Origin: Martelella limonii
Lineage (GTDB): Bacteria; Pseudomonadota; Alphaproteobacteria; Rhizobiales; Rhizobiaceae
Direction: 5' to 3'
Length of the DNA: 64,000 bases
Assembly: GCF_013344475.1 (NCBI RefSeq)
Contig: NZ_JABUOU010000002.1
Span: forward strand, 248,001-312,000
This document shows, piece by piece, positions 29,430-42,934 of this stretch; position 1 is the stretch's first letter; every line of letters starts with the position of its first letter. A program made the translations under genes and the position numbers. The notes below the pieces were generated by a model. It worked only from the letters and a program-made list of their open reading frames with translations. It searched no databases and was not told the DNA's origin.

Positions 29430-29852
29430 ATGACGGATGCAATGGTCGATCGCGACAATCAGGCCCTGGTGGAACTGACCGCCGACATCGTGGCAGCGTA
29501 TGTTAGCAACCATGTCATCCAGACCGGCGATTTGCCCAGTCTTATCCATGAGGTGCATACCGCGCTCAGCAACACGGCGAAACCTCAGGCCGTGGCGGTC
29601 GCACAGGAAAAGCAGAAGCCGGCTGTCTCGGTGCGCAAGTCGATCAGCGGCGACCACCTTGTTTGTCTGGAATGCGGCGGGAATTTCAAGTCGCTGAAGC
29701 GTCACCTGATGACGCATCACGATCTGAGCCCGAACGCCTACCGCGAAAAATGGGAACTGCCGGCGGACTATCCGATGGTTGCCCCGTCCTATGCCGAGGC
29801 CCGTTCGCGCCTTGCCAAGGAGATGGGTCTCGGTCAGCGCCGCGGCCGCTAA
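29430..29852 (+). CDS. mucR: MucR/Ros-family zinc-finger transcriptional regulator
   Basis: 140 residues. The single prokaryotic zinc finger is complete: C79 and C82 (CLECGGNF), H92 and H96 or H97 (KRHLMTHH), followed by the conserved [21 protein letters not shown]. The N-terminal half (about residues 10-50) is the oligomerisation region. MucR proteins are H-NS-like silencers of AT-rich promoters controlling exopolysaccharide, motility and cell-cycle genes. Followed by a strong terminator. Confidence 0.95.
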
Positions 29853-30009: not shown

Positions 30010-30020
30010 GTTGATCAATG

Positions 30021-30036
30021 TAGGAAAATAATCCTA
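30021..30036. promoter_or_regulatory. Palindromic operator candidate TAGGA-N6-TCCTA, site 1
   Basis: TAGGAAAATAATCCTA, a perfect TAGGA/TCCTA inverted repeat. Its first 15 bases are repeated exactly at 41013-41027 next to the presumed GTA promoter. Confidence 0.6.
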
Positions 30037-30117
30037 TTATTGGCAAAAATAAATAAACAAAATCAGAGGGGGATCGTAAGGATGAACCGGATTCCGTCCC
30101 CGCTTCCTGGGCCGATG

Positions 30118-30133
30118 TAAGAATAAAATCCTA
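30118..30133 (-). promoter_or_regulatory. Palindromic operator candidate, site 2 (imperfect)
   Basis: On the minus strand it reads TAGGATTTTATTCTTA, sharing TAGGA and the AT core with site 1 but with a weaker right arm. It ends 17 bases before the GafY-like start codon, overlapping the ribosome-binding region, which would suit autoregulation. Confidence 0.4.
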
Positions 30134-30150
30134 TTTTTCAGGGAGCTAAT

Positions 30151-30567
30151 ATGACCGAGCATCACATAGTTTCGCCGACGGCATTCCGTCAGTCCTCGCC
30201 GCATTCTCAACCATGGTGCATCGAGCGGGCAAGCCAGATGTCGGATATTCGCAAGGCCTGCCGCATCGTTCTCCTGATCACCAAGGAGATGGCGGTGGTT
30301 GCCGGGGAGCGGATCTCGATCCGCGCGGAGCGCCGCAGGTCTGTTTCGCATTACCGGCAGATCGCCATGTATGTCTGCCACGTATCGCTGCAATTGTCGC
30401 TGAGCGAGATCGGCCAGGCCTTCGGACGGGACCGCACCACCGTTGCCTATTCGTGCCGGGTGATCGAGGACCGGCGCGACGACCGGGCATTCGACGAGTT
30501 CATCGCCGCTGTGGAGCGGCTTGCCTATAATGTCGTCACGGCCGCCGAGGTGCGCCATGATGGCTGA
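30151..30567 (+). CDS. DnaA domain IV-like HTH regulator, probable GTA activator GafY
   Basis: 138 residues with AGGGAG six bases before the ATG. Residues about 60-115 form a DnaA domain IV-like helix-turn-helix: HYRQIAMYVCHVSLQLSLSEIGQAFGRDRTT then VAYSCRVIEDRRDD. The rest of DnaA is absent, so this is not a replication initiator. It overlaps a DUF6456 gene by 11 bases. In Caulobacter the GTA activators GafY and GafZ correspond to the N- and C-terminal parts of Rhodobacter GafA, which has a DnaA-like HTH; that paired organisation and a shared operator with the GTA promoter support the GafY role. Inference, not proven. Confidence 0.65.
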   Translation: MTEHHIVSPTAFRQSSPHSQPWCIERASQMSDIRKACRIVLLITKEMAVVAGERISIRAERRRSVSHYRQIAMYVCHVSLQLSLSEIGQAFGRDRTTVAYSCRVIEDRRDDRAFDEFIAAVERLAYNVVTAAEVRHDG

Positions 30568-31048
30568 GCGTGGTGAGAGGAGCCCGCTTGAAACGCTGGC
30601 GCGGTTGAAGACGCGTGATGGGGCGCCGTTTCTGCCGCTGGAGGCGGTCATTGCCGGCGAGCGACTTTTGTCCGACTTCAATCACGCCATGCTGCAGCCG
30701 CGCCTGACCGCATCGCTGTCGCCGCGGCTTGAGACGCGCACGCGCGGGCAGGCGGCATCGTGCCCGTCCGATAGCGCGATCGATGCTCGCCGGCGCGTTG
30801 CGAGCGCGATGAAGGCGATCGGGCCGGAACTGGCCGATATAGCCCTGGATTTCTGCTGCTTCATGAAGGGTCTGGAGCAGATCGAGCGCGAACGCCAATG
30901 GCCGGTGCGCTCGGCCAAGCTGATGGTGCGGGCAGCGCTTGCGGCACTTGCCCGCCACTACGCGCCGCCGGCTGCAAGGACCGGGATCCGAAGCTGGGCC
31001 GCCGAAGGCTACCGGCCGGATATCTCCGCCCTCTTGGCGGAGGAATAG
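30557..31048 (+). CDS. DUF6456 protein, probable GTA antiterminator GafZ
   Basis: 163 residues from the ATG at 30557. Two conserved parts: SPLETLARLKTRDGAPFLPLEAVIAGERLLSDFNHAML near the N-terminus and IALDFCCFMKGLEQIERERQWPVRSAKLMVRAALAALARHY towards the C-terminus, the DUF6456 pattern. Translationally coupled to the DnaA-like HTH gene. GafZ of Caulobacter has been described as an antiterminator that lets RNA polymerase pass terminators inside the GTA cluster; the GTA cluster in this window contains such terminators. Domain call is firm; GafZ equivalence is inferred. Confidence 0.65.
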   Translation: MMAERGERSPLETLARLKTRDGAPFLPLEAVIAGERLLSDFNHAMLQPRLTASLSPRLETRTRGQAASCPSDSAIDARRRVASAMKAIGPELADIALDFCCFMKGLEQIERERQWPVRSAKLMVRAALAALARHYAPPAARTGIRSWAAEGYRPDISALLAEE

Positions 31049-31053
31049 TCCGT

Positions 31054-31479
31054 TCAGGCCGAAAGCCTGCGCGCGGCCGTGTCGCGGATCTTGGTCACCA
31101 TGGCATTCAGCCCGTTGGCACGCTGGGCGGAAAGATGGTCGACAAGGCCGATCTTCCTGAAGGTGTCGATCGCATCCGTCTTGACGATGTCCGATGCCTT
31201 GCGGCCCGAATAGACTGTGAGCACGATCGAAACCAGGCCACGGACGATGAAGGCATCGGAATCGCCGCGAAAGCGCATCACCGGATCGTCACCTGCTTCC
31301 GGCTCCGAGACCAGCCAGACCTGGCTGGCACAGCCGTGAACGCGGTTGTCCTCGATTTTCTCGTCTTCCGGAAGACCGGGGAGGGCCTTGCCGAGTTCGA
31401 TCACATAGCGATAGCGATCCTCCCAGTCGTCGAGGAAGGAAAAGTCTTCGATAATCTGATCGAGTGTCTGGGTCATCAT
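31054..31479 (-). CDS. sufE: SufE family sulfur acceptor protein
   Basis: 141 residues. The catalytic Cys is C50 in RVHGCASQVWL, which accepts persulfide sulfur from SufS for Fe-S cluster assembly. IIEDFSFLDDWEDRYRYVIELGKALPGLP is the conserved N-terminal helix region. Complete length for SufE. Convergent with the DUF6456 gene, with five bases between them. Confidence 0.93.
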   Translation of the reverse strand: MMTQTLDQIIEDFSFLDDWEDRYRYVIELGKALPGLPEDEKIEDNRVHGCASQVWLVSEPEAGDDPVMRFRGDSDAFIVRGLVSIVLTVYSGRKASDIVKTDAIDTFRKIGLVDHLSAQRANGLNAMVTKIRDTAARRLSA

Positions 31480-31562
31480 CCGCTCTTTCGCTTGATTTCT
31501 GCCCGATATAGTCCGGCGCGGCGGAAATTGGAATGACCGGGGCGCGAAGTAAACGGCGCGAT

Positions 31563-32063
31563 CTAGCGCGGCCGGGGGGTCGGGACGGGTACGACCTGGA
31601 CAGGGGCGGTTGAAGGGGGCGCCTCGTCGATCGCGCCGGTCTGGATCAGGTCGGGCGTGGTTTCGGCAGCGGGTGCCGGCTGTTCGGCGGCCACGGGTTC
31701 CGGTTCGATAACCGGACGGGCGAGCTTCGGCGTTGCTGCCGTCTGGAGCGCGGGCTTTTCAGCCGTGTCGCCGAAATGCTGGCCGAGATAGAGATAGACG
31801 ATTTCGGCGCCCTGGCGGGCGCGGCGTCCGAGAAAGCCGAGCATGCCCGCGCCATCGGTGCAGACCTCGGGTCGCTGATCGCAGATGTCGCTCATATATT
31901 CGAATGTGCCGCGTGCGGCGGAAACGGCGCCGCCGATATCCTGACCGCTCGGAAGCGCCTGCTGCTCACGCGTTGCCGCATCGCCAAGCATCAGCGGCGC
32001 GAAGAACGGCACCACCAGCAACAGCAGGAAAATCATGAATGCGGCTTTCAGCAGAAATCTCAT
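31563..32063 (-). CDS. DUF5330 family membrane-anchored protein
   Basis: 166 residues: an N-terminal membrane anchor (residues 4-27), then a conserved globular part with two Cys (MSDICDQRPEVCTDGAG) and FLGRRARQGAEIVYLYLGQHFGD, then a ~75-residue Pro/Ala/Glu-rich tail. The pattern matches DUF5330 of Hyphomicrobiales; function unknown. Probably in the periplasm. Confidence 0.8.
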   Translation of the reverse strand: MRFLLKAAFMIFLLLLVVPFFAPLMLGDAATREQQALPSGQDIGGAVSAARGTFEYMSDICDQRPEVCTDGAGMLGFLGRRARQGAEIVYLYLGQHFGDTAEKPALQTAATPKLARPVIEPEPVAAEQPAPAAETTPDLIQTGAIDEAPPSTAPVQVVPVPTPRPR

Positions 32064-32444
32064 TGGCTCCCGGCCCGTTGGTTGCGTCCGCAGCGCGTTT
32101 CAGATCAGCATTATATTAAGGCGGTAAATGAGCCGCTAAAAGGGCGCGTGAAAATTTCTCCGATTGCAGGAAACGGGGCCGGAAGATCAGGCTGTTGTGG
32201 CAAATCAGCATGGAATATCATAAGCCTAGGTCAGTCTTCGTGCCCTTTGCGTTCCGCTGCAAGGCGCTTCGGGTATTAACCATAGGGAGCGATTTTCCGC
32301 GTCAGGCATGCGGTCATCCGGCTCTGACACTGGCCGCGGAGGGGGCGATCCATTACCTTTGCCATGGATATGCCCGCCGACGGCCGGGTGCCGCGAGGCG
32401 CCTGCGGCCCGTTGGTTTCGGGCAGATACGATAAGAATCAGGTG
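32064..32444. other. Divergent intergenic region with a CtrA-like half-site
   Basis: 381 bases between divergently transcribed DUF5330 and peptidoglycan-binding genes. It contains TTAACCAT at 32276-32283. An in-frame extension of the downstream gene starts at 32364 but has no ribosome site. Nothing else recognised. Confidence 0.5.
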
Positions 32445-33347
32445 ATGATCAGAATGGCGAAGAAGACGGCGAAGAAAACCGGCAAGCGCAGGAAGAAATC
32501 TCCTTCGCTGATCCGGCGCACTGCGTCTTCGATCGGCGGCCTGCTTGCCCGCCACCCCGCCAAGCTTGGCGGGCCGGTGGTGTTCGGCGTTGTCTTCAGT
32601 TTCGTCTCCGCCAATGCGCTGTGGTATCAGCCCGGCCCGCATCCAAGCCCGATGATGAAGACGCGGCTGCCCTCCGATCCCTATTCCGTGCCGGGACGGC
32701 GCAAGGCGGCTGCGACGGATTTCGAAACATTCCGCATTGAGCTGGAAGAGGGCACACGGCAGGACAAGCCCGAGGACGACCTCATTGCCATACTGGAGCA
32801 GGTGGAGGCCAACCCGCCGCCGGTTGCAGCAGACGCGCCGGCGCCGGTGGAAGAGACACCGGCTGCAGCACCCGCCGAACAGCCGGTTGACATTCTGGCG
32901 CTGCAACAGGCGCTTGCCGCACGCGGCTACTACAAGGCCAAGCCTGATGGCGTGACCGGCCCGATTACGGAAGCCGCGATCAAGGCGTTTCAGGCCGATG
33001 AGGGCATTGCGGTTACAGGCAAGGCCGACGGCGCGCTGATGGCGCTTGTCAGCATGCCTCTGCCCAAACCGCGTTCGCAGACCGTGCCATCCGCCGATCC
33101 CGTTGCCGAACTGCTTGAAGCAGAGGACGAGGCCCCTGCTATCGAGATCAGCGCTGCCGACCCGATGGTGATCGAGATCCAGCGCGGACTGATCAATATC
33201 GCCTATGACGGCGTGGTGGCCGACGGCGTCGCCGGCAACACGACGCGTGAAGCGATCCTGGAATTCCAGAAGCATTACCGGTTGCCCGAAACGGGAGAGC
33301 CGAGCGCAAGCGTGCGTGACAAGCTGATAGAAATCGGCGCATTGTAG
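32445..33347 (+). CDS. Membrane protein with two peptidoglycan-binding domains
   Basis: About 300 residues. A very basic cytoplasmic N-terminus (AKKTAKKTGKRRKKS) precedes one transmembrane segment (GGPVVFGVVFSFVSANALW), then a Pro/Ala-rich linker and two PG_binding_1 domains: DILALQQALAARGYYKAKPD with AIKAFQADEGIAVTG, and MVIEIQRGLINIAYDGVVAD with AILEFQKHYRLPETG. Likely a periplasmic cell-wall anchor. The start was placed at ATG 32445 because upstream residues look non-coding; ATG 32454 is also possible. Confidence 0.82.
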   Translation: MIRMAKKTAKKTGKRRKKSPSLIRRTASSIGGLLARHPAKLGGPVVFGVVFSFVSANALWYQPGPHPSPMMKTRLPSDPYSVPGRRKAAATDFETFRIELEEGTRQDKPEDDLIAILEQVEANPPPVAADAPAPVEETPAAAPAEQPVDILALQQALAARGYYKAKPDGVTGPITEAAIKAFQADEGIAVTGKADGALMALVSMPLPKPRSQTVPSADPVAELLEAEDEAPAIEISAADPMVIEIQRGLINIAYDGVVADGVAGNTTREAILEFQKHYRLPETGEPSASVRDKLIEIGAL

Positions 33348-33435
33348 CGCCCTGTTGTTCCTTCATATGCGCATCTGCCATGGCGGGTGCTGGATGGCAG
33401 CCCTGTGATTGTTGCCGTAAACGGGAAAGACCGGC

Positions 33436-33777
33436 ATGCGCCTTCGCTCAGATATATTTGCCTCGGCGCTGGTGCGCAGGGCCTTTGCCGCAGGCGGCTT
33501 TGCCGCGGTCGAGCGCAAGGGTTCACCCGATGCCGGGGCGATTGCCATCCGGCAGGTGTTTCGAAACGGCGAGGAGACGCTCTATCTTCCCGCACCCCAG
33601 AGCTTTGCCGAGGAGGGAGCGACCGACCGCCTGTTCGAGGCGCGGCTGGTTGCGGCCTCCTCTGAAAAGGTGGCGGAGATGCTCGAGCGCGAGATGCGCT
33701 TTGACAGTGACCTCTGGGTGGTTGCGCTGGAATGCGATGATATTGACGGATTTTTCGAGATAGCGGACGGCAGCTGA
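33436..33777 (+). CDS. DUF1491 family protein
   Basis: 113 residues with the DUF1491 pattern: MRLRSDIFASALVRRAFAAGGFAAVERKG at the start, GAIAIRQVF and a C-terminal MRFDSDLWVVALE. Small soluble protein of unknown function, frequent in Hyphomicrobiales and usually near peptidoglycan-binding or cell-envelope genes as here. Confidence 0.85.
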   Translation: MRLRSDIFASALVRRAFAAGGFAAVERKGSPDAGAIAIRQVFRNGEETLYLPAPQSFAEEGATDRLFEARLVAASSEKVAEMLEREMRFDSDLWVVALECDDIDGFFEIADGS

Positions 33778-33855
33778 TCTTGGCTGCGGCCGGAAGCGCT
33801 GCGCTTCGGGCGGTTCACCTCCAGCGCTTTGGGTCGCCCACGATCGCGACCGGTT

Positions 33856-34794
33856 TCACGCCGAGCGGCGAGCGGCGGTCTGCTGCTTTTCGGTGGCCGT
33901 GCGGGTTTCGCGCGCGCGCTGCCATTCCATAAGCTCCTGCACGCATTGGGCAGGCTTCAGCGGGCCGACGATCTTTTCGACGGCAAACTCGGTGGTTTCG
34001 TTGTCCTTGCGCTCAAGCCTTGCGACGCGCGGCAGAATGTAGCGCGTATCCTCGCCATTGGTGCCGAGCGCAATCAGCGCGACGGCCAGACGGCGGCCCG
34101 TGGGTTCTGCGAGGATTTCGCGGGCCAGCACCCGGTCGCCGCCGAGCGCGCGCGTGAAGGTTTCGGTGAAGAAGGATTTTTCGGCGCGTCGGGCGAAGCG
34201 GACGAGAAGGGCGGTCTGCAACTCGCTCAGCGTTGCCAGTCCGAGCCGGTCTGTGTCGTCGGTTCCGGCCGCCATCGCCTTCAGCGTGCGGCGCAGAACC
34301 TCGCTGTCATCGCGGGTGCCGGCGTCGATATTGTCGAAATTGCCCTCGGGCTCCTGCCGGTCTTCGGCACGCCGTGCGCCGATCAGCGCCTGGATGACCT
34401 TCTGCGACAGGTCCGCGCGGTGGATGATGGCGCGGATATGTTCTTCGGTGGTGGTTTCGATGAGCGCGATCAGCGTGTCATCGGTGATCGCGGGTGAACG
34501 GGCAAGGAACGGCGCGGCTATCGCGATTTCGCGGCTGCCGATATAGCGGCAGACATCCTGCGGCACGTTGGCATGGCAGGAAAGGGCGGCCACCGCCTGA
34601 CGGCGCGCTTCCACCGACGAGGCCTCGTAGACGGGAGCGAAGAGTTCGGCGAACCGCCGGCGTTCGGCAGCGCTCGGATTGTCGAGCGAACCGAAACCCG
34701 ACACCGTCGCCATCAGCACGACGTCGAGATTGCGCGTATTCTTCAGCCCTTCAAGTTCCCGATACCGATCGACCAAGGTCGTACTCCCCGACAA
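33856..34794 (-). CDS. DUF2336 family HEAT-like repeat protein
   Basis: 312 residues, alpha-helical throughout. DUF2336 features include RRRFAELFAPVYEASSVEARRQAVAALS, APFLARSPAITDDTLIALIE and HIRAIIHRADLSQKVIQALI, which look like HEAT-type repeats. Function unknown. A near-consensus CtrA site (TTAT-N7-TTAAC, 34830-34845) lies about 36 bases upstream of the start. Confidence 0.85.
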   Translation of the reverse strand: MSGSTTLVDRYRELEGLKNTRNLDVVLMATVSGFGSLDNPSAAERRRFAELFAPVYEASSVEARRQAVAALSCHANVPQDVCRYIGSREIAIAAPFLARSPAITDDTLIALIETTTEEHIRAIIHRADLSQKVIQALIGARRAEDRQEPEGNFDNIDAGTRDDSEVLRRTLKAMAAGTDDTDRLGLATLSELQTALLVRFARRAEKSFFTETFTRALGGDRVLAREILAEPTGRRLAVALIALGTNGEDTRYILPRVARLERKDNETTEFAVEKIVGPLKPAQCVQELMEWQRARETRTATEKQQTAARRSA

Positions 34795-34829
34795 ATGTCT
34801 TCTAACGACAACAGGTTAGGGAGAAAACG

Positions 34830-34848
34830 TTATAAAGATGTTAACCAT
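34830..34848 (+). promoter_or_regulatory. CtrA-like site upstream of the DUF2336 gene
   Basis: TTAT-N7-TTAAC (34830-34845), one mismatch from the TTAA-N7-TTAAC consensus, and it contains the rhizobial half-site TTAACCAT (34841-34848). The same octamer occurs at 22252 and 32276. Confidence 0.5.
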
Positions 34849-34929
34849 AGCGAAGGGAGCGGGGTAATGCAGCGGGTGACAGACGTTCTGATCGCACCGG
34901 TGTGGGTATCGGCCTCTCCGCTCTCTCGG

Positions 34930-35083
34930 CGTCATCCTCGGCCTTGTGCCGAGGATCTAAGCACATCACCACACGACAGGCGTGTCGTTGAGCGCTGCCC
35001 GTGGCGCCGTTGTGTGTGGCGACCCGCCAACTCTTCTCGCGACAAACGTGATTAGATCCTCGGCACAAGGCCGAGGATGACGC
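34930..35083. repeat. Palindromic (REP-like) element, long-arm copy
   Basis: Arms 34930-34960 and 35052-35083 are near-perfect inverted copies of ~31 bp, each containing the hairpin CCTCGGCCTTGTGCCGAGG or its complement. The ~90-bp spacer holds another small inverted repeat (ACGACAGGCGTGTCGT, about 34972-34987). It fills most of the 350-base gap between DUF2336 and livF, in which no gene was seen. Confidence 0.85.
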
Positions 35084-35144
35084 AGGTGGATTTGGCGGGC
35101 GCAGGAAGGGGGTAAACCGGGGAGGGCAGGCCAAGCCTGCTGCC

Positions 35145-35867
35145 TCATATCGCCAGATATTCCTCGCGCAGTTCGGCATTTTCCAGCACTTCCGCCGCGG
35201 TTCCGGAGAAGACGATCTGACCGGTGTCCATGATCACCGCCTTGTCGGAGAGGCGGAGCGCTGCCACCGCGTTCTGCTCGACGATGATGGTGGTGATGCC
35301 AAGGTCGCGGATCTGACGGACGATGCTTTCGATCTCGTGGACGATGACGGGGGCGAGGCCCTCATAGGGTTCATCGAGAAACAGGATCTTGATGTCGCGG
35401 GCAAGCGCGCGGGCAACGGCCAGCATCTGCTGTTCGCCGCCGGACATGGTGACGGCGTCCTGCTTGCGGCGTTCGGCAAGACGGGGGAAATGGTCGTAGA
35501 TCCTTTCGATGGTCCAGCCCTTTTCGCCGGAGACCTGGGCAAGGATCAGGTTTTCCTCGACCGTCAGCCCGCCGATGATGCGGCGGTCTTCGGGAACCAA
35601 CTGGACGCCCATCTTGGCGGCCTGGAAGGCGCGCTTGTTGTGGAGCGGTTCGCCGTCGAGCCAGATTTCGCCGCTCTTGAGCCCCGGATTGTCGAGGCGG
35701 GCAAGCGTCCTGAGCGTGGTGGTCTTGCCGGCGCCGTTGCGGCCGAGGAGCGACAGCACCTCGCCCTTGGCGATATCGAAGGAGACGCCCTGGACGATGT
35801 AGCTTTCGCCATACCAGGCGTGAATGTCGCGGACGCTGAAGAATGCATCGCCTTTTTCGGTGGCCAT
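35145..35867 (-). CDS. livF: Branched-chain amino acid type ABC transporter ATP-binding protein LivF
   Basis: 240 residues from ATG 35867, chosen for its GAGGAG ribosome site; ATG 35909, overlapping the livG stop (ATGA), is the alternative. Walker A is LLGRNGAGKTTTLRTLARL, the ABC signature MSGGEQQMLAVARALA and Walker B ILFLDEPYEGLAP. LivF family: GVQLVPEDRRIIGGLTVEENL. Last gene of a five-gene uptake operon on the minus strand. Confidence 0.93.
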   Translation of the reverse strand: MATEKGDAFFSVRDIHAWYGESYIVQGVSFDIAKGEVLSLLGRNGAGKTTTLRTLARLDNPGLKSGEIWLDGEPLHNKRAFQAAKMGVQLVPEDRRIIGGLTVEENLILAQVSGEKGWTIERIYDHFPRLAERRKQDAVTMSGGEQQMLAVARALARDIKILFLDEPYEGLAPVIVHEIESIVRQIRDLGITTIIVEQNAVAALRLSDKAVIMDTGQIVFSGTAAEVLENAELREEYLAI

Positions 35868-35905
35868 CCGGTTCTGCTCCTCGCCGAAATTGTTGCGCAG
35901 CATGT

Positions 35906-36673
35906 TCATGTCTCTGATTCCCCGAGATAGGCTTCCCTGACCTTCGGATTGCCGCGCACCTCGTCGGGAGAACCTTCCGCGATGATGCGGCCCTGCGCAA
36001 GAACCGAAATCTTGTCGGCAAGGGAGAACACAACATGCATGTCGTGCTCGATGATCACCTTGGTCATGCCACGCGCCTTGATCCGCTGGAGAAGCTCGAT
36101 GGTGCGGTTGGTATCGTGGCGGGCCATGCCGGCGGTCGGCTCGTCCAGCAACAGAAGCTTGGGCTTCTGGATCAGGCACATGGCAAGCTCCAGGCGGCGT
36201 TTGTCGCCGCGTGACAGCGAGCCAGCCTCATGGTTTCGGCGCGCCGAAAGGCCGATGTCTTCAAGCGTCGCCTCGGCCTCCTCGCGGACCTGTCTCTCCC
36301 CGGCCAGCGCCCGGATCGCATTGAGCCGGAATGCACCGTCCCGCCTTGCAAAGGCGGGGATCATGACGTTTTCGAGAAGCGTCAGGTCCGGGAAGATCTC
36401 GGGCGTCTGGAAAACACGCGAGACGCCCATCTGGTTGATCTCGTGGGGCGGGTGTTTGGTCAGCGTCTTGCCATCGAAGACGACCCTGCCATGGGTCGGC
36501 TTCAACCGGCCGATGCAGACGTTGAGAAGCGTGGACTTGCCCGCGCCATTGGGGCCGATAATGGCGTGGACCTTGCCGCTTTCGACCTCGAGATTGACAT
36601 CGGAGAGCGCCCTCAGGCCGCCGAATGTCTTGTGCACGTCATCCACATGGAGAACGATGTTGTTGTCGGCCAT
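35906..36673 (-). CDS. livG: Branched-chain amino acid type ABC transporter ATP-binding protein LivG
   Basis: 255 residues from ATG 36673, starting four bases after the livM stop. Walker A IIGPNGAGKSTLLNVCIGR, signature SLSRGDKRRLELAMCL, Walker B LLLLDEPTAGM, and the H-loop IIEHDMHVV. The signature's Arg in place of the second Gly of LSGG (SLSRGD) is usual in the LivG/UrtD group. Energises the LivHM permease. Confidence 0.93.
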   Translation of the reverse strand: MADNNIVLHVDDVHKTFGGLRALSDVNLEVESGKVHAIIGPNGAGKSTLLNVCIGRLKPTHGRVVFDGKTLTKHPPHEINQMGVSRVFQTPEIFPDLTLLENVMIPAFARRDGAFRLNAIRALAGERQVREEAEATLEDIGLSARRNHEAGSLSRGDKRRLELAMCLIQKPKLLLLDEPTAGMARHDTNRTIELLQRIKARGMTKVIIEHDMHVVFSLADKISVLAQGRIIAEGSPDEVRGNPKVREAYLGESET

Positions 36674-36677
36674 GGTG

Positions 36678-37826
36678 CTACTCCGCTGGCTGGACTTCGG
36701 CGACGGATTGTTCCTGCGCCTTGCCGGAGCCGCCGCCACCGATGCGGGCGCGGACCCGTTTGACGCCTTCCATGATGCCGCCGGGCAGGAAGATAACGAT
36801 CGCCATGAAGATCAGGCCGAGGGTGAGGTGCCAGCCTTCGCCGACGAACAGGGAGATCAACTTGACGACCGGGGTCTCGATCGCGTTCGGCAGGAAGGAG
36901 AAGGTCTGGTGCAGGGCCTGTTCGTTGAAGGACGAGAAGATGTTCTCGAAATACTTGATGATCACGGCGCCGATCACGGGGCCGACCAGCGTGCCGACGC
37001 CGCCGAGAATGGTCATCAGCACGACTTCGCCCGAGGCCGTCCACTGCATGCGCTCGGCGCCCGCCAGCGGATCGGTGACCGCCATCAGCGCGCCGGCGAG
37101 GCCCGCGAACATGCCGGAAATGATGAAGGCGGAGCGCAGATAGGGCCGCGTGTTGAAGCCGGTATACATCATCCGGTTCTGGTTCGATTTCACCGCCTTC
37201 AGCATCATGCCGAAGGGCGAACGGAAGATGCGGATGGTGAGGTAGAAGCAGATCAGGAGCGCGATGGCGCAGAAATAAAAACCCGGATAGCCCTGCAGCT
37301 CGAGCCCGAAGAATTCGGGCGAGGGCAGGCCTGCGCCGGCCTCGGAGAACATCCGGTCGAGGATGCGCGGATCATTGTGCGAGAGCTGCAGGCCGGTTTC
37401 GCCATTGGTGATCGGGGTCAGCACCGAATAGGCGAGGTTGTAGCTCATCTGGGCGAAGGCGAGCGTCAGGATCGAGAAATAGATGCCCGAGCGGCGCAGC
37501 GTCACGAAGCCGATGACGGCGGCGAACAGGCCGGAACAGATCATCGCGAAGATGATTGCGGGGATTGCGTTCATGGTCAGAAGCTTGAACGACCAGACCG
37601 CGGCATAGGAGCCGACGCCGAGGAAGGCGGCATGGCCGAACGAGAGATAGCCGGTGAGCCCGAACAGGATGTTGAAGCCGATGGCGAAGATGCCGAAGAT
37701 CGCGAATTTCTGCAGGAGCGCCGGATAGGCCGCACCCAGCGGCATGAACAGGATGGGCGCTGCCAGCACGATCGCCGAGAAGATGATGAACAGCAGCCAG
37801 TCGTTGCGGGAGAGGTTGGCGAACAT
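36678..37826 (-). CDS. livM: Branched-chain amino acid type ABC transporter permease LivM
   Basis: 382 residues, about ten transmembrane segments, with [22 protein letters not shown] and [24 protein letters not shown], the LivM core, and [16 protein letters not shown] near the C-terminus. A ~25-residue Gly/Glu-rich cytoplasmic tail ends the protein. Starts six bases after livH. Confidence 0.92.
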
Positions 37827-37832
37827 GCGGAT

Positions 37833-38849
37833 CTATTCCTCCATCACGCCGCGGCGGCCCATGAGCCCGCGCGGCATGGTCAAGAGAATGATGACGGCGA
37901 CGAGGTAGATGATGACCTGGTCGATGCCGGGGATGATGGCCTTGACCTCGTTCATCGAGGCGAAGGACTGGAGAATGCCGAGGGTGAAGCCGGCGATGAT
38001 CGCGCCGGGCAGCGAACCCATGCCGCCGACGACCACGACCACGAAGGAAAGCACCAGGAAATCCATGCCGAGGTGATAGTTCGGCGGCAGGATGGGCGTG
38101 TACATCACGCCCGCAAGGCCCGCGACCACGGCGGCGATGCCGAAGACGACGGTGAAGCGTTTTTCGATGTCGACGCCGAGCAGGCCGACGGTTTCCCGGT
38201 CGCGCATGCCGGCGCGGACCACCATGCCGTAGGTCGTGAATTGCAGGAAGGCGAAGACCGCGCCGATGATGAGGAGGGCCGTGACGAAATAGATCAGACG
38301 CCACCAGGGATAGACGATGAAGGAATCGGCCATGCCGATCCAAGCGCCGATATTGGCGGTGCCGGCAAAGGCAGAAGGTGCCGATTGAGGGATCGGGTTG
38401 GCGCCGAAGATCTGCTTGATGATTTCCTGGAGCACGATGGCAAGGCCGAAGGTGACGAGGATCTGGTCGGCATGAGGCCGCTTGTAGAAGAACCGGATGA
38501 GCCCGCGTTCCATGACGAGTCCGAAGAGCAGCATCACCGGGATCGCAAGCAGGATCGACAGCGGCACGGACCAGTTGATGATTGCAGCGCCCGTGTCACC
38601 GAAGGCATATTCCATGTAGGGGATCGGGCGCGGCGCAAACAGCGCGCCTTCCGCCTTTGGCGGCTGGACCGGCCATGTGATCAGCGCGTTGAAGGCCACG
38701 GAGCAGAAGGCGCCCAGCATGAACAGTGCGCCGTGGGCGAAATTGACCACGCCAAGCGTGCCGAAGACCAGGGTCAGGCCAAGGGCGATCAGCGAATAGG
38801 CCGCGCCCTTGTCCAGACCGTTCAGAATTTGAATGATGATGGCGTCCAT
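37833..38849 (-). CDS. livH: Branched-chain amino acid type ABC transporter permease LivH
   Basis: 338 residues. LNGLDKGAAYSLIALGLTLVFGTLGVVNFAHGALFMLGAF is the typical LivH N-terminus and GGMGSLPGAIIAGFTLGILQS the conserved C-terminal part. It has a ~70-residue insertion with a hydrophilic loop (PPKAEGALFAPRPIPY), longer than E. coli LivH. Confidence 0.92.
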   Translation of the reverse strand: MDAIIIQILNGLDKGAAYSLIALGLTLVFGTLGVVNFAHGALFMLGAFCSVAFNALITWPVQPPKAEGALFAPRPIPYMEYAFGDTGAAIINWSVPLSILLAIPVMLLFGLVMERGLIRFFYKRPHADQILVTFGLAIVLQEIIKQIFGANPIPQSAPSAFAGTANIGAWIGMADSFIVYPWWRLIYFVTALLIIGAVFAFLQFTTYGMVVRAGMRDRETVGLLGVDIEKRFTVVFGIAAVVAGLAGVMYTPILPPNYHLGMDFLVLSFVVVVVGGMGSLPGAIIAGFTLGILQSFASMNEVKAIIPGIDQVIIYLVAVIILLTMPRGLMGRRGVMEE

Positions 38850-38925
38850 GACCCGCTATCCGCTGTTGAGATGCGTGGGGCCGGGGGCGATTGCAGCACC
38901 CGGCCCGTTGTTCAACTGCCCGAAC

Positions 38926-40275
38926 TCAGCACTGCTTGGCGGTATCGGGGCCAAGCTCGCCGCCGAAGATCGACGGGTCGTAATCGACCTGGGCGCGCGG
39001 CACGATCTCTACCACCTTCAGGAGGTCGTATTCGTTTTCCGGCTTCGGATTACCGCGGACCACGAGAACGTCTTTCATGCACTGATGGTCGGCGGCGCGG
39101 TAGAGCGTCGGGCCGTTGCCGAGACCGTCGAACTCGAAGCCTTCCAGCGCCTTGATGACTTCCGGGGCGTAGAAGGTTCCGGCGCGCTCGACGGCATCGG
39201 CGTAAAGGAGAGCCTGGACGTAGCAGGTCTGTGCGGCCTGGGACGGCGGGAAGCCGTATTCGGCCCCGAACGACTGAACCAGCGCCTTCGTGCCGTCATC
39301 CTCGAGCGACCATAGCCAGTTGGCCGAGCCGAGGATGTTCTGGGCGGCGGAACCGGCACCCTTTGCCATCAGGTCGGAGAACAGCGGGACCACGATCTCG
39401 AAATTCTTGCCGTTGACCTGCTTGTCCTTGAGGCCGAACTGGACGGCCTGGGTCAGAGAATTGACCATGTCGCCGCCATAGTGGTTGAGGATCAGCACGT
39501 CGGCGCCGGAATTGAGAACCGGGGTGATGTACTGCGAGAAGTCGCCCGCACCGACCGGGGTCTTGACCGTCTGAACGGTTTCCCAGCCAAGCGCCTCGGT
39601 GGCGTTCTTCATCGATTCTTCCTGGGTCCAGCCCCAGGTATAGTCGGCGGTCAGGTGATAGGCGCGGCGGTCCTTGCCGTATTCGGCGGCAAGCACCGGG
39701 CCGAGCGCTTCGCCGGACTGGTAGGCGTTGAAGAAGTGACGGAAGCCGTAGCGACGCTTGTCCTTGCCGGTGGTGTCGTTGGAGTGGGTAAGGCCTGCCA
39801 TGAAGATGACGCCCATGTCCTGGCAGAGGCTCTGAACGGCAACGGCCACGCCCGACGAGGAACCGCCGGTGATCATCACCGCGCCGTCCTTTTCGATCAT
39901 GCGCTTGGCGCCGTCGCGGGCGGCATCCGACTTGGTCTGGGTGTCGCCGGTGACGTAATCGACCTTCTTGCCGAGAATGCCGTTGCCCTTCAGCGTCTTG
40001 GACGAGAAGGTGGCGAGCATGCCGCCGTCGCCTTCGCCGTTCAGATGCTTGGCGGCGAGTTGAAGGGCTTTCAGTTCATCGAGGCCTTCATCGGCGTAGG
40101 GGCCTGTCTGGGGCACGTTGAAGCCGAGCACGACATTGCTGCCGGTCGGCATGTTGCAGGACATCATGTCCTGAGCGTAGGCGCCGCGAACGAAATGCAT
40201 GGGGGCTGCGAGGGTGATGCCGGCTGCAGCACCTGCTCTGAGCAGGCTGCGCCGGTTCATGATAAAGCGAGACAT
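38926..40275 (-). CDS. ABC transporter periplasmic substrate-binding protein (LivK-like)
   Basis: 449 residues with a Tat-like signal (MNRRSLLRAGAAAGITLAAPMHFVRGAYAQ). The type I periplasmic-binding fold is clear: VVLGFNVPQTGPYADEGLDELKALQLAAKHLNG, ITGGSSSGVAVAVQ, and ADVLILNHYGGDMVNSLTQA. It differs enough from classical LivK that the ligand (branched amino acid, amide or other) cannot be named. First gene of the operon, feeding livHMGF. Confidence 0.88.
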   Translation of the reverse strand: MSRFIMNRRSLLRAGAAAGITLAAPMHFVRGAYAQDMMSCNMPTGSNVVLGFNVPQTGPYADEGLDELKALQLAAKHLNGEGDGGMLATFSSKTLKGNGILGKKVDYVTGDTQTKSDAARDGAKRMIEKDGAVMITGGSSSGVAVAVQSLCQDMGVIFMAGLTHSNDTTGKDKRRYGFRHFFNAYQSGEALGPVLAAEYGKDRRAYHLTADYTWGWTQEESMKNATEALGWETVQTVKTPVGAGDFSQYITPVLNSGADVLILNHYGGDMVNSLTQAVQFGLKDKQVNGKNFEIVVPLFSDLMAKGAGSAAQNILGSANWLWSLEDDGTKALVQSFGAEYGFPPSQAAQTCYVQALLYADAVERAGTFYAPEVIKALEGFEFDGLGNGPTLYRAADHQCMKDVLVVRGNPKPENEYDLLKVVEIVPRAQVDYDPSIFGGELGPDTAKQC

Positions 40276-40497
40276 TCAGACTCCTCCCAAGTCTTGAAAA
40301 GGGCTGCGCCCTCCTCGGCGCAGACACGCTCGTCCTCCGGAGCGCATGGCCGGATGCTAGCAAGTGGGCGAATTGTCGCAATTGACCGATAGTGATAAGA
40401 CCTTTGTTTAAGTCGTCTCTTGCTTACGCAGGCCGCCATGGGTTGAAGGCAAAGCCCGATCAGCGCATATAGGCGCAAGCGGCGCAAAGGATGGATG

Positions 40498-40971
40498 ATG
40501 GCTGACGAAACGGTGCAACCGTTCTGGCGGGTCAAACGACTCGACGAGATGGACAATCGCGAATGGGAATCCCTCTGCGATGGTTGCGGGCTGTGCTGCC
40601 TGAACAAGCTGGAAGACTGGGAAACGGGCGAGGTGGCTTACACCTCGGTTGCATGCCGGCTTCTGGATGGCCATTCATGCCAGTGTTCTGATTATGAGCA
40701 CCGCCAGAAGACGGTGCCGGAATGCATCCAGCTCGACCTCGAGGGCGTGGAGGAGATCGCGTGGTTGCCGCCGACCTGCGCCTATCGGCTTGTCCATGAG
40801 GGGCAGGATCTCTACTGGTGGCATTACCTGGTTTCCGGCGACCGCGAGACGGTGCACCAGGCCGGGATTTCGGCGCGCGACCGGACAATCAGCGAGCTCA
40901 AGGTGGCGGTCGAGGATTATGAGGATTACCTGATCGAATGGCCTGTTCTGACCGGCGAAAAGACCGGCTAG
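40498..40971 (+). CDS. YcgN family cysteine cluster protein (UPF0260)
   Basis: 157 residues. The Cys cluster is complete: LCDGCGLCCLNKLED, a second Cys in SVACRLLD, HSCQCSDYEHR, and PECIQ/PTCAY further on, probably a metal or Fe-S site. FWRVKRLDEMDNREWESLCDGCG is the family opening. Function unknown. AAAGGA precedes ATG 40498; ATG 40495 is also in frame. Confidence 0.9.
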   Translation: MADETVQPFWRVKRLDEMDNREWESLCDGCGLCCLNKLEDWETGEVAYTSVACRLLDGHSCQCSDYEHRQKTVPECIQLDLEGVEEIAWLPPTCAYRLVHEGQDLYWWHYLVSGDRETVHQAGISARDRTISELKVAVEDYEDYLIEWPVLTGEKTG

Positions 40972-41012
40972 GCGTCTTCGATCAATTTCAGAATAAGAAA
41001 TAATACCTAAAA

Positions 41013-41055
41013 TAGGAAAATAATCCTTGACGCCGTAACGGTGGTTTGATAGGTT
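41013..41055 (+). promoter_or_regulatory. Presumed GTA promoter with palindromic activator site
   Basis: -35 box TTGACG (41027-41032), 17-base spacer, -10 box TAGGTT (41050-41055). The palindrome TAGGAAAATAATCCTT (41013-41028) abuts the -35 and would be centred near -41.5, the usual place for a class II activator. It shares 15 identical bases with the site upstream of the GafY-like gene. A second small inverted repeat CCTA-AAA-TAGG overlaps it (41006-41016). Confidence 0.6.
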
Positions 41056-41061
41056 CTCAAT

Positions 41062-41150
41062 ACGGTCGGGAAAGTGCGGGTTGATCCTGCAGCTCCCGTC
41101 TCACTCATTCGTCACTCAGACTGGCCCGGTTTTTCGACCGGGCTTTTTTT
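41062..41150 (+). ncRNA. Structured GTA leader or small RNA ending in a terminator
   Basis: From the predicted start near 41062 the RNA would fold into a 5' hairpin (CGGGA 41067-41071 with TCCCG 41094-41098; TGCGGG 41075-41080 with CCTGCA 41086-41091; loop TTGAT), then ~25 unpaired bases, then an intrinsic terminator. This is the shape of a ~90-nt small RNA, but its position directly before the terminase gene makes a premature-termination leader for the GTA operon at least as likely. No known RNA family was recognised. Confidence 0.4.
41124..41150 (+). terminator. Intrinsic terminator before the first GTA gene
   Basis: GCCCGGT (41124-41130) pairs with ACCGGGC (41137-41143), loop TTTTCG, followed by seven T. 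It stands between the presumed promoter and the terminase small subunit gene. Confidence 0.88.
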
Positions 41151-41196: not shown

Positions 41197-41697
41197 GTGG
41201 CTGACCATTTCGACATTTCGCTGTTCGGCCTCTGGCCGCGCAATCCGCGCTATGAGGGCGGTCAACATTTCGATGGCGGGACGGCGCGCGCCGAGGCGGG
41301 TTACCATTTCATCGAGCCGAAGACGCGCCGCGGAGGCGGCGATGACGACATGCGGCTGCTGCTCAATGATCTGACCGCGGAGATGCGGGCGCAATATACT
41401 TTCTTCAAGCGACTGAGGATGCGGGCGGCAAAGCGCGCGAGCCAGAATGACGAGGCCGATCAGCGCGCCGAGGTGAAGGCGGCGACCGATGCGATCGCGC
41501 TGATCATCCGGACTTTGGAAAAGGCGGACGAGTTGCAGCGGCGGCTTGCCGCCGCACGCAAGGACGAGGAAGAGCGTCAACTGAATTTCAGGGATTACGA
41601 TCATGCCAAAGCCCACTTCCTCGACCTCATCGAACAGCGGGCCGAGGAATTGGCGGAACGAAAGCTTGCCGGGCGCGAAACCGCTGCCGGAAGCTGA
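41197..41697 (+). CDS. GTA terminase small subunit-like protein (g1 position)
   Basis: 166 residues from GTG 41197, with AAGGAG six bases upstream. The middle and C-terminus are charged, helical and probably coiled coil (EMRAQYTFFKRLRMRAAKRA ... IIRTLEKADELQRRLAAARKDEEER). It overlaps the large terminase gene by 95 bases. Position, size and helical character fit the RcGTA g1 small terminase; direct sequence recognition is weak. Confidence 0.6.
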   Translation: MADHFDISLFGLWPRNPRYEGGQHFDGGTARAEAGYHFIEPKTRRGGGDDDMRLLLNDLTAEMRAQYTFFKRLRMRAAKRASQNDEADQRAEVKAATDAIALIIRTLEKADELQRRLAAARKDEEERQLNFRDYDHAKAHFLDLIEQRAEELAERKLAGRETAAGS

Positions 41698-42934
41698 TCC
41701 GTTTCATTATGCAGCCTTTCTTGCCAAGGACTGGCGGTTTCTGGCGCGGCCCGAGCAGTTGCCGCCTGCCGATGACTGGCGGACATGGCTCCTGATGGGC
41801 GGTCGCGGCTCGGGCAAGACCCGCGCAGGCGCCGAATGGGTGCATGAACTGGCGATTTCGGATGGCGCCCGCAGCGAGTTGCGGATTGCGCTGGTGGCGG
41901 AGACGCTGGGCGATGCGCGCGAGGTGATGATCGACGGCGTTTCCGGCATCTGCCGGGTGGCACGGCGGATGAAGCCGGATTTCGAGATCACCCGGCGCAG
42001 GCTCATCTGGCCGAACGGGGCGGTGGCGCATCTGTTTTCCTCGGAAGATCCGGAGGCCTTGCGCGGCCCGCAGTTTCACTATGCCTGGTGCGACGAACTG
42101 GCGAAGTGGCGTTATGGCGAGGAATGCTGGGACATGCTGCAGTTTGGACTGCGGCTCGGCGACGCACCCCGGCAGATGGTGACGACGACCCCGCGGGCGG
42201 TGCCGCTGTTGAAACAGCTGATGGCGGAGGACGACACGGTGCTGGCACGGATTGCGACTGCCGATAACCGCGCCAATCTGGCTCCGGGCTTCATCAAGGC
42301 GCTTTCGAACCGGTATGGCGGAACGCGGCTCGGGCGGCAGGAGCTTGACGGCGAACTGATCGAGGACCGCGAGGATGCGCTGTGGCGCCGCAGCGAACTG
42401 GAAACGATCGTGGCGCGGCGCGCCATGGCATCCGGACGGATCGTGGTGGCGGTCGATCCGCCGGCGGGGTCCGGGCGCAACTCGGTCTGCGGCATAGTGG
42501 TGGCGGGCGCGATGGAAAATGGCGGCGCCCTGGTGCTGGCCGATTGTTCTGTGGAAGGCGGGACGCCGGCGCAATGGGCGCGGGCGGTGGTCGAGGCCTA
42601 TCGCCGTTTCGATGCCGACCGGGTGGTGGCGGAGATCAACCAGGGCGGCGACATGGTGACGGCGATGCTGAGGAGCGTGGACGAGCGCCTGCCGGTTGCC
42701 ACCGTCAGGGCCAAGCGCGGCAAGTTTCTGCGCGCGGAGCCAGTTGCGGCACTCTATGAGCAGGGACGTGTGCGCCATGCCGGGCATTTCGCGCGGCTTG
42801 TCGACCAGATGTGCGATTTTGGCCCGGACGGACTTTCGGCGGGGCGCTCGCCCGACCGGCTGGATGCGCTGGTCTGGGCGCTGACCGCGCTGCTTCTGGA
42901 GGGCAACGGCATGCCGAGGGTCAGGGGCGTCTAG
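41603..42934 (+). CDS. GTA terminase large subunit (DNA packaging ATPase, g2)
   Basis: 443 residues. Walker A GGRGSGKT (residues 66-73), Walker B region HYAWCDELAKW, and the coupling motif MVTTTPRAVPLLKQLM form the ATPase. The nuclease domain starts IVVAVDPPAGSG and continues to RSPDRLDALVWALTALL, the conserved acidic C-terminus. The protein loads random host DNA into GTA capsids. Start ATG lies within the preceding gene, so the two are translationally linked. Confidence 0.93.
   Translation: MPKPTSSTSSNSGPRNWRNESLPGAKPLPEADPFHYAAFLAKDWRFLARPEQLPPADDWRTWLLMGGRGSGKTRAGAEWVHELAISDGARSELRIALVAETLGDAREVMIDGVSGICRVARRMKPDFEITRRRLIWPNGAVAHLFSSEDPEALRGPQFHYAWCDELAKWRYGEECWDMLQFGLRLGDAPRQMVTTTPRAVPLLKQLMAEDDTVLARIATADNRANLAPGFIKALSNRYGGTRLGRQELDGELIEDREDALWRRSELETIVARRAMASGRIVVAVDPPAGSGRNSVCGIVVAGAMENGGALVLADCSVEGGTPAQWARAVVEAYRRFDADRVVAEINQGGDMVTAMLRSVDERLPVATVRAKRGKFLRAEPVAALYEQGRVRHAGHFARLVDQMCDFGPDGLSAGRSPDRLDALVWALTALLLEGNGMPRVRGV

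Follow-up and report, generated by a model that had tools for sequence, protein, structure and literature searches.

Two promoters within a 64,000-nucleotide stretch of the Martelella limonii genome (contig NZ_JABUOU010000002.1, positions 248,001 to 312,000; hereafter the window) carry the same palindrome, one in front of a gene pair resembling gafY and gafZ and the other at the presumed promoter of a gene transfer agent (GTA) cluster, which raises the question of which protein the palindrome serves. The original prediction held that one regulator links the two promoters, perhaps the helix-turn-helix (HTH) protein encoded by the first gene of the pair. Most likely, the palindrome is instead the operator of a RogA-type repressor acting directly on its own gene, on gafYZ and on the GTA promoter, a reading that draws on the directly observed sites, their conservation, their presence at three genes and their link to the repressor gene, together with a predicted LexA/CI fold.

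The 15 bases TAGGAAAATAATCCT occurred exactly at 30021-30035 and 41013-41027, both on the + strand, and a third copy with 3 mismatches (TAAGAATAAAATCCT) was present at 30118-30132, so that the two exact copies and the degenerate one were located where they had been placed before. With up to 3 mismatches allowed, the window gave 3 matches against a shuffle mean of 0.26, and 0 of 100 shuffles reached 3. The 14-base core AGGAAAATAATCCT was found at only two places in the 4.54 Mb assembly: before gafYZ and directly against the -35 box of the GTA promoter. The genome-wide motif search that had been proposed as a check gave a divided answer. Bare AGGA-N6-TCCT half-sites were found at 42 places compared with 46 for the backwards control and are uninformative genome-wide for that reason, while the form with an all-A/T spacer was enriched, with 10 places against 0 for TCCT-W6-AGGA. 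By crude gene calls, these ten sites comprised two in the window, one at the repressor gene described below, two in one intergenic stretch (L020), one at a gene boundary (L023), three inside long open frames (L021, L022 and L026) and one that was ambiguous (L025). A lysis-gene target had also been expected, and no lysis gene was recognised among the ten sites, whose neighbours were not searched one by one.

A search of the Martelella genome for S24-type proteins returned four, one of which, encoded at G000:C29:397038-397709 on another contig than the window, has the palindrome AGGATTTTATTCCT 78 bp before its start; AGGA-N6-TCCT was absent from the fetched flanks of the other three S24-type genes. 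Among the best 30 of 109 matches to this repressor gene in the Rhizobiaceae, all 30 had an upstream operator with 7 or 8 of the 8 half-site bases, and in 25 it had all 8. A site within 300 bp with an AT-rich spacer was found in 29 of 30, where the backwards motif gave 1 and shuffles 0.8. Of 121 Rhizobiaceae genomes, 13 had the repressor gene and no gafY match. Twelve of these were read, G030 being left out because of its GTA terminase, and eight of the twelve had an AT-rich-spacer site at the repressor gene (four with all eight bases) where shuffles gave 0.4 and the backwards motif 0. Judged from sequence, the operator within the Rhizobiaceae follows the repressor gene even where GafY is missing. 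A hairpin-terminator reading of the repressor-gene site was set aside, as the AGGA and TCCT letters were kept and pairing outside them was not.

These sites bear on the protein first proposed as the binder. In that proposal GafY, the product of 30151-30567, binds the palindrome, activates the GTA promoter in class II fashion from -41.5 and autoregulates its own gene. The same operator persists before a LexA/CI-like gene in genomes that lack a match to gafY or gafZ, which counts against GafY as the owner of the site, and we regard this alternative as unlikely.

The repressor is a protein of 224 residues that matched Peptidase_S24 (8.6e-24), its HTH falling below the cut-off by sequence. An N-terminal Cro/CI-type HTH is joined to a C-terminal LexA/CI-like S24 domain, which is also the architecture of RogA (about 213 residues). 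The AlphaFold model (mean predicted local distance difference test score 83.8, predicted template modelling score 0.52) had a helical N-terminal domain and a LexA-like beta domain, and its best PDB matches were LexA (3k2z) and the full-length lambda repressor (3bdn). A low-confidence loop at residues 104-109 holds Ala-Gly. Of 70 homologues, one of which was represented by its HTH part only, 68 had Ala-Gly, 69 had Ser and 68 had Lys at the self-cleavage positions. As this is the set found in self-cleaving LexA/CI proteins, induction by DNA damage would be possible. Caulobacter RogA (CCNA_00080) is a LexA-like protein of 213 residues in which key cleavage residues are absent (PMC9632790), a trait that was not found in the repressor family described here; the missing residues were reported for one species and hence do not define a family. 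The repressor is a putative orthologue of Caulobacter RogA. In locus L220 and in the genus g96 (G096, G407, G459, G501, G537 and G567) the repressor match was weak and short (E about 1e-25). In G096 the match covers only the HTH part, with about 70 residues aligned; this genome keeps the GTA operator and an intact operator upstream of the repressor gene, and no operator was found at its gafY.

At the gafYZ locus, operator A (30021-30035, + strand, with the palindrome at 30022-30035) is an exact copy of the GTA operator and occupies the spacer of a promoter-like pair, TTGATC/TATTAT (30011-30040; two such pairs were found on both strands and 0.7 in shuffles). Operator B (AAGAATAAAATCCT, 30118-30133, + strand) has 7 of 8 half-site bases and stands directly before the ribosome-binding site and start codon, 97 bp from operator A, and most named relatives have TGTATGAATTAATTCCTATT or a close variant at its position. 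A site in a predicted promoter spacer and a second before the ribosome-binding site would suit a repressor, which is a further point against activation by GafY. The gafY-like gene (30151-30567, + strand) encodes a DnaA domain IV-type HTH (Pfam Bac_DnaA_C, 1e-15; NCBIfam PRK06030 models matched below their cut-offs), and the gafZ-like gene (30560-31048, + strand; Pfam DUF6456, 2.3e-41) overlaps its end, so the identification of the neighbouring genes as a GafY/GafZ-like pair was borne out. The closest named match of the GafY-like protein, among the best 80 of 126, was M. mediterranea IOP_24 (86%).

These best 80 of 126 named gafY loci, with titles mostly from the Rhizobiaceae, some giving only Rhizobiales, and near relatives included, were used for a survey of the upstream region. 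The fetched flanks of 79 of the 80 contained a gafZ match. At least 7 of 8 half-site bases were present within 450 bp upstream of the gafY match in 80 of 80 loci, all 8 in 21, and with an AT-rich spacer required the operator was found in 79. Controls gave 59 of 3006 flanking windows, 36 of 1225 AT-matched (overlapping) windows, a mean of 4.1 and a maximum of 7 of 80 for dinucleotide shuffles, and 19 of 80 for the backwards motif. Spacer length made a difference: sites with N6 were found in 79 of 80 loci, those with N7 in 1 and those with N8 in 3, and the counts of 38 for N4 and 31 for N5 probably come from overlapping A-rich sequence within the same sites. Most promoters had two sites. In the 68 two-site loci the separation was 105-109 bp in 60; two loci had 97 bp, one had 100 bp and five had other distances, and the window falls in the 97 bp class. 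The 97 and 107 bp classes are about one helical turn apart, which suggests that both dimers would lie on the same face of the DNA. The top dyad at gafY promoters was GGA-N6-TCC (58 of 79, shuffles 5.1), although this is no independent proof because the 79 loci had been chosen beforehand for having the site and were cut at operator B, so that the dyad is site A. The predicted gafYZ operators of the relatives have the geometry of RogA sites, usually with one mismatch each.

A MucR/Ros-type regulator gene (ROS_MUCR) at 29430-29852 is the immediate upstream neighbour of gafYZ. MucR-type proteins prefer AT-rich DNA without a strict palindrome, which weighs against MucR as the owner of the site. That this protein or another XRE or nucleoid-type regulator (RtrA/B-like or CdxA/B-like) owns it is very unlikely: several XRE proteins do repress gafYZ in Caulobacter (PMC10688885) and the ROS_MUCR gene adjoins gafYZ, but the site before the LexA/CI-like gene would be left unexplained and the Caulobacter XRE motifs consist of one strong and one weak half-site (PMC10688885).

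The comparison with published systems drew on PMC9632790, PMC11150451, PMC9638019, PMC6363796, PMC13236601 and PMC10688885. Caulobacter RogA sites are two GGAA-N4-TTCC inverted repeats in the gafYZ promoter (PMC9632790), and the Martelella palindrome was likened to them because both share the GGA-N6-TCC geometry. This likeness to the RogA sites also tells against the proposed class II activation by the HTH protein, as does the position of the mapped Caulobacter GafY element, which contains ACTATG and lies elsewhere, at about -123 to -113 (PMC11150451), or near -118, in a species where no GafYZ motif could be predicted (PMC9632790). A point in favour of GafY is that the GafY/GafA proteins of Caulobacter and Rhodobacter bind both promoters and activate them (PMC9632790, PMC6363796).

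The repressor reading extends to the GTA promoter, where the operator (41013-41027, + strand), with the consensus TAGGAAAAtAnTCCTTGAC in aligned relatives, has its last base in common with the predicted -35 box TTGACG (41027-41032, + strand). This box was assigned from sequence and conservation, and a consensus promoter scan did not list it. The predicted -10 box TAGGTT (41050-41055, + strand) is conserved as TAGGnT, and with a predicted start 7 bases after it the operator centre at 41020.5 falls at about -41.5, an arithmetic that agrees with the earlier placement of the operator beside the -35 box. The alignment of 43 promoters was conserved at TAGGAAAAtAnTCCTTGAC, at gCGTgACGGT, at the TAGGnT-type -10 box and in a start region GTCGgaaA..TGnG, and nothing was conserved further upstream of the operator. 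With the palindrome found at gafYZ and near the GTA clusters of relatives, the expectation that it would be conserved at both promoter types, and that a single regulator joins them, was supported.

A profile of the GTA promoter was built solely from the region downstream of the operator, with each row left out in turn. The 41 training promoters had first been found via the operator, and two mis-anchored rows of the 43 (L222 and L242) were omitted. Counting identical promoters once, 55 distinct promoters scored above the highest of 240 control windows, and 52 of these came from genomes that have the repressor gene (G096, with its HTH part, being counted among these). The operator was present at 51 of the 52, compared with 1 of the 3 from genomes lacking the gene (Fisher p = 0.006, uncorrected for relatedness). 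Six further genomes without a repressor match (G018, G628, G142, G174, G177 and G265) had no recognisable promoter core and are outside the three. The profile count was used in place of an earlier figure of 27 of 30 for the region upstream of terL, which includes chance matches (for example L154, L155 and L163). The sole operator-less promoter among the 52, L332, is not from the Rhizobiaceae. The GTA operator is present in L333 and L334, which come from a different family within that order, and L338, which lies beyond the order, has TTGA fused to an exact site in a promoter below the profile threshold.

Genomes lacking the repressor provided a natural test. Among 393 Rhizobiaceae genomes of at least 95% completeness, 369 had the repressor gene and 309 had gafY, and at least four (G018, G118, G612 and G628) had gafY without the repressor gene; 20 of the 24 repressor-less genomes were listed, G612 and G628 being identified by difference. 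In G612 the gafY promoter had no site, and the spacer palindrome, a -10 box and the start region are recognisable at the GTA promoter but the operator is not (4 of 8 half-site bases), whereas G404, its sister in the genus, has the repressor gene and two gafY sites. G018 had no gafY site and no recognisable GTA promoter. G132, from another order or family and with no repressor match, has a recognisable GTA promoter without the operator. The class II position fits the GTA operator and was in favour of GafY, as was the failure to find any other conserved element before the GTA -35 box, but the promoters of G612 and G132 are otherwise recognisable without the site and G612 has gafY and no site.

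Several results weigh against the repressor reading. G118 had no repressor match in its assembly and nevertheless a GTA site with 8 of 8 half-site bases and a weaker gafY site, which would also suit GafY. Neither alignment nor dyad counts revealed a second GafY element upstream of the GTA operator. Four of the twelve gafY-less Rhizobiaceae (G019, G044, G066 and G085) had a repressor-gene site that was missing or too weak. Among the best 29 of 68 matches outside the Rhizobiaceae the repressor-gene site was present in 15 (10 of 17 without gafZ and 5 of 12 with it) and missing or too weak in 14; control windows gave 24 of 699 and shuffles 1.0 of 29 and 0.6 of 17, but the backwards motif reached 7 of 29 and 4 of 17 without gafZ, for which reason this evidence is suggestive only. 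The gafY side outside the family was weak as well: among gafZ loci, an AT-rich site lay upstream in 7 of 16 where the repressor was present and in 2 of 13 where it was absent. In Caulobacter, enrichment of RogA was confined to gafYZ and CCNA_02002, and so was seen at neither the GTA promoter nor its own (PMC9632790), and its lack of the catalytic residues that are kept here speaks against a firm claim of orthology, hence the label RogA-type. Counts across related genomes are also non-independent. The backwards-motif control did not alter the assessment of the repressor reading, whose main weight lies on the count of 8 of 12 against 0 in the Rhizobiaceae.

Since no second GafY element was found, GafY could use the same site. 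The repressor and GafY would then compete for the palindrome, with GafY acting partly as an anti-repressor, and such sharing would reconcile the class II position and the missing other GTA element with the evidence for the repressor. There is no sequence evidence that GafY recognises AGGA-N6-TCCT, however, and sharing would be unneeded at the repressor gene's own promoter; we consider it quite unlikely.

Under the preferred reading, that of a RogA-type repressor at all three genes, we infer steps of binding, repression, looping and a GafZ-dependent antitermination. A repressor dimer would bind AGGA-N6-TCCT and shut its own gene, would shut gafYZ through two sites some nine or ten helical turns apart, possibly with a loop between them, and would shut the GTA structural promoter directly from a seat on the upstream edge of the -35 box. 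Removal of the repressor would free gafYZ and the GTA promoter together, after which GafZ would probably bind the small palindrome between the -35 and -10 boxes and let polymerase past the terminator just downstream. A near-consensus -35 box freed the Caulobacter GTA promoter from its dependence on GafYZ (PMC11150451), and as the -35 box of the Rhizobiaceae GTA promoters is near consensus (TTGAC), direct repression would be the expected form of control. Most likely this wiring holds in rhizobia and their relatives, where a phage-style repressor would silence a domesticated virus at its activators and at its particle genes alike.

The candidate GafZ-binding element is the small palindrome CCGTAACGG (41033-41041, + strand), conserved as gCGTgACGGT. 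Inverted repeats with arms of at least 3 were found in 36 of 43 spacers between -35 and -10 compared with about 12% of shuffles. In Caulobacter, GafZ acts at an inverted repeat, the ZBE, between the -35 and -10 boxes (PMC11150451), and the repeat found here takes the same place but differs from it in sequence. A strong intrinsic terminator-like hairpin followed by T6 (41123-41144, + strand; 1 found, shuffles 0.5) separates the GTA promoter from the first gene of the cluster, and such leader terminators were detected in 18 of 41 GTA leaders and in 0 shuffles.

The circuit shares much with the RogA-gafYZ-GTA circuit of Caulobacter (Gozzi 2022; Tran and Le 2024), namely a GafY/GafZ-like pair, a GTA cluster, a repressor of LexA/CI-like type, a gafYZ promoter with two GGA-N6-TCC inverted repeats, a palindrome at the place of the GafZ element and a terminator to pass. 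Unlike in Caulobacter, the Martelella operator is also fused to the GTA -35 box and lies upstream of the repressor gene, the -35 box is near consensus, a leader terminator precedes the first gene in the 18 promoters noted above, and the self-cleavage residues (A-G, Ser and Lys) are retained. Direct repression of the GTA promoter is most likely a departure from the Caulobacter wiring, and the comparison suggests one circuit with two wirings, through the activators only in Caulobacter or through the activators and the particle promoter together here. In Rhodobacter capsulatus, GafY and GafZ match the two ends of GafA, which is autoregulated and controls the GTA directly (Fogg 2019; Sherlock and Fogg 2022). 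GafA differs in being a single fused protein with CtrA and quorum-sensing input, and the accessible parts of these papers describe no AGGA-N6-TCCT operator for it.

The lambda late promoter has an antiterminator element between its -35 and -10 boxes and a terminator shortly downstream of the start, and the GTA promoter, with its candidate GafZ element, would resemble it. The circuit is also like lambda CI or LexA combined with a Q-dependent late promoter in having a CI-like repressor with self-cleavage residues. Unlike in lambda, the repressor gene sits on a separate contig and occurs widely among alphaproteobacteria, including ones without a GTA, and the activator and particle-gene promoters share one operator type. 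A bolder proposal is that Rhizobiaceae GTAs retain a working prophage-style switch, in which a self-cleaving, RecA-responsive CI/LexA-like repressor shuts its own gene, the activators (through a loop) and, in contrast to Caulobacter, also directly the particle genes, the promoter is of the lambda PR' kind (a near-consensus -35 box, a spacer element for GafZ and a leader terminator to be overcome by GafZ) and release is inducible by the SOS response. We hold this to be possible but on balance doubtful. The natural trigger of GTA production in Caulobacter is unknown (PMC11150451), and the self-cleavage residues offer a testable one, DNA damage. Among the matches listed in our literature searches there was no description of a GTA operator in the Rhizobiaceae or of GTA regulation in Martelella. 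A defined operator at three genes across the family offers a direct handle on GTA control, with one repressor gene and three short sites.

Further features of the GTA region were noted. The first open reading frame of the cluster (41197-41697, + strand), in the position of a small terminase, had no Pfam match and is followed by the large terminase (41603-42934, + strand; Pfam Terminase_6N, 8.3e-36), and the cluster in the window includes terminase, portal and capsid genes. The spacer palindrome (of the ACCGTGACGGT type) and the first transcribed bases (of the GTCGGAAAA..TGCG type), at 41033-41075 in the window, were shared by the Rhizobiaceae promoters that were read and in part by more distant ones. 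The first transcribed bases might serve GafZ as a pause or loading element. A degenerate operator-like sequence, TAAGAAATAATACCTA (40994-41009, + strand), can be read 19 bp upstream of the main GTA operator. L325 and L334 have a clearer tandem second operator 19 bp upstream, before the GTA -35 box, and this arrangement suggests cooperative binding. Outside the window, two operators with all-A/T spacers lie 128 bp apart in an intergenic stretch (L020:2217-2358, equivalent to G000:C1:247716-247857) after an ATP-binding cassette transporter ATPase-like frame and upstream of a small reading frame (L020:2641-2949) with no Pfam match, and this pair is a possible further target of the repressor.

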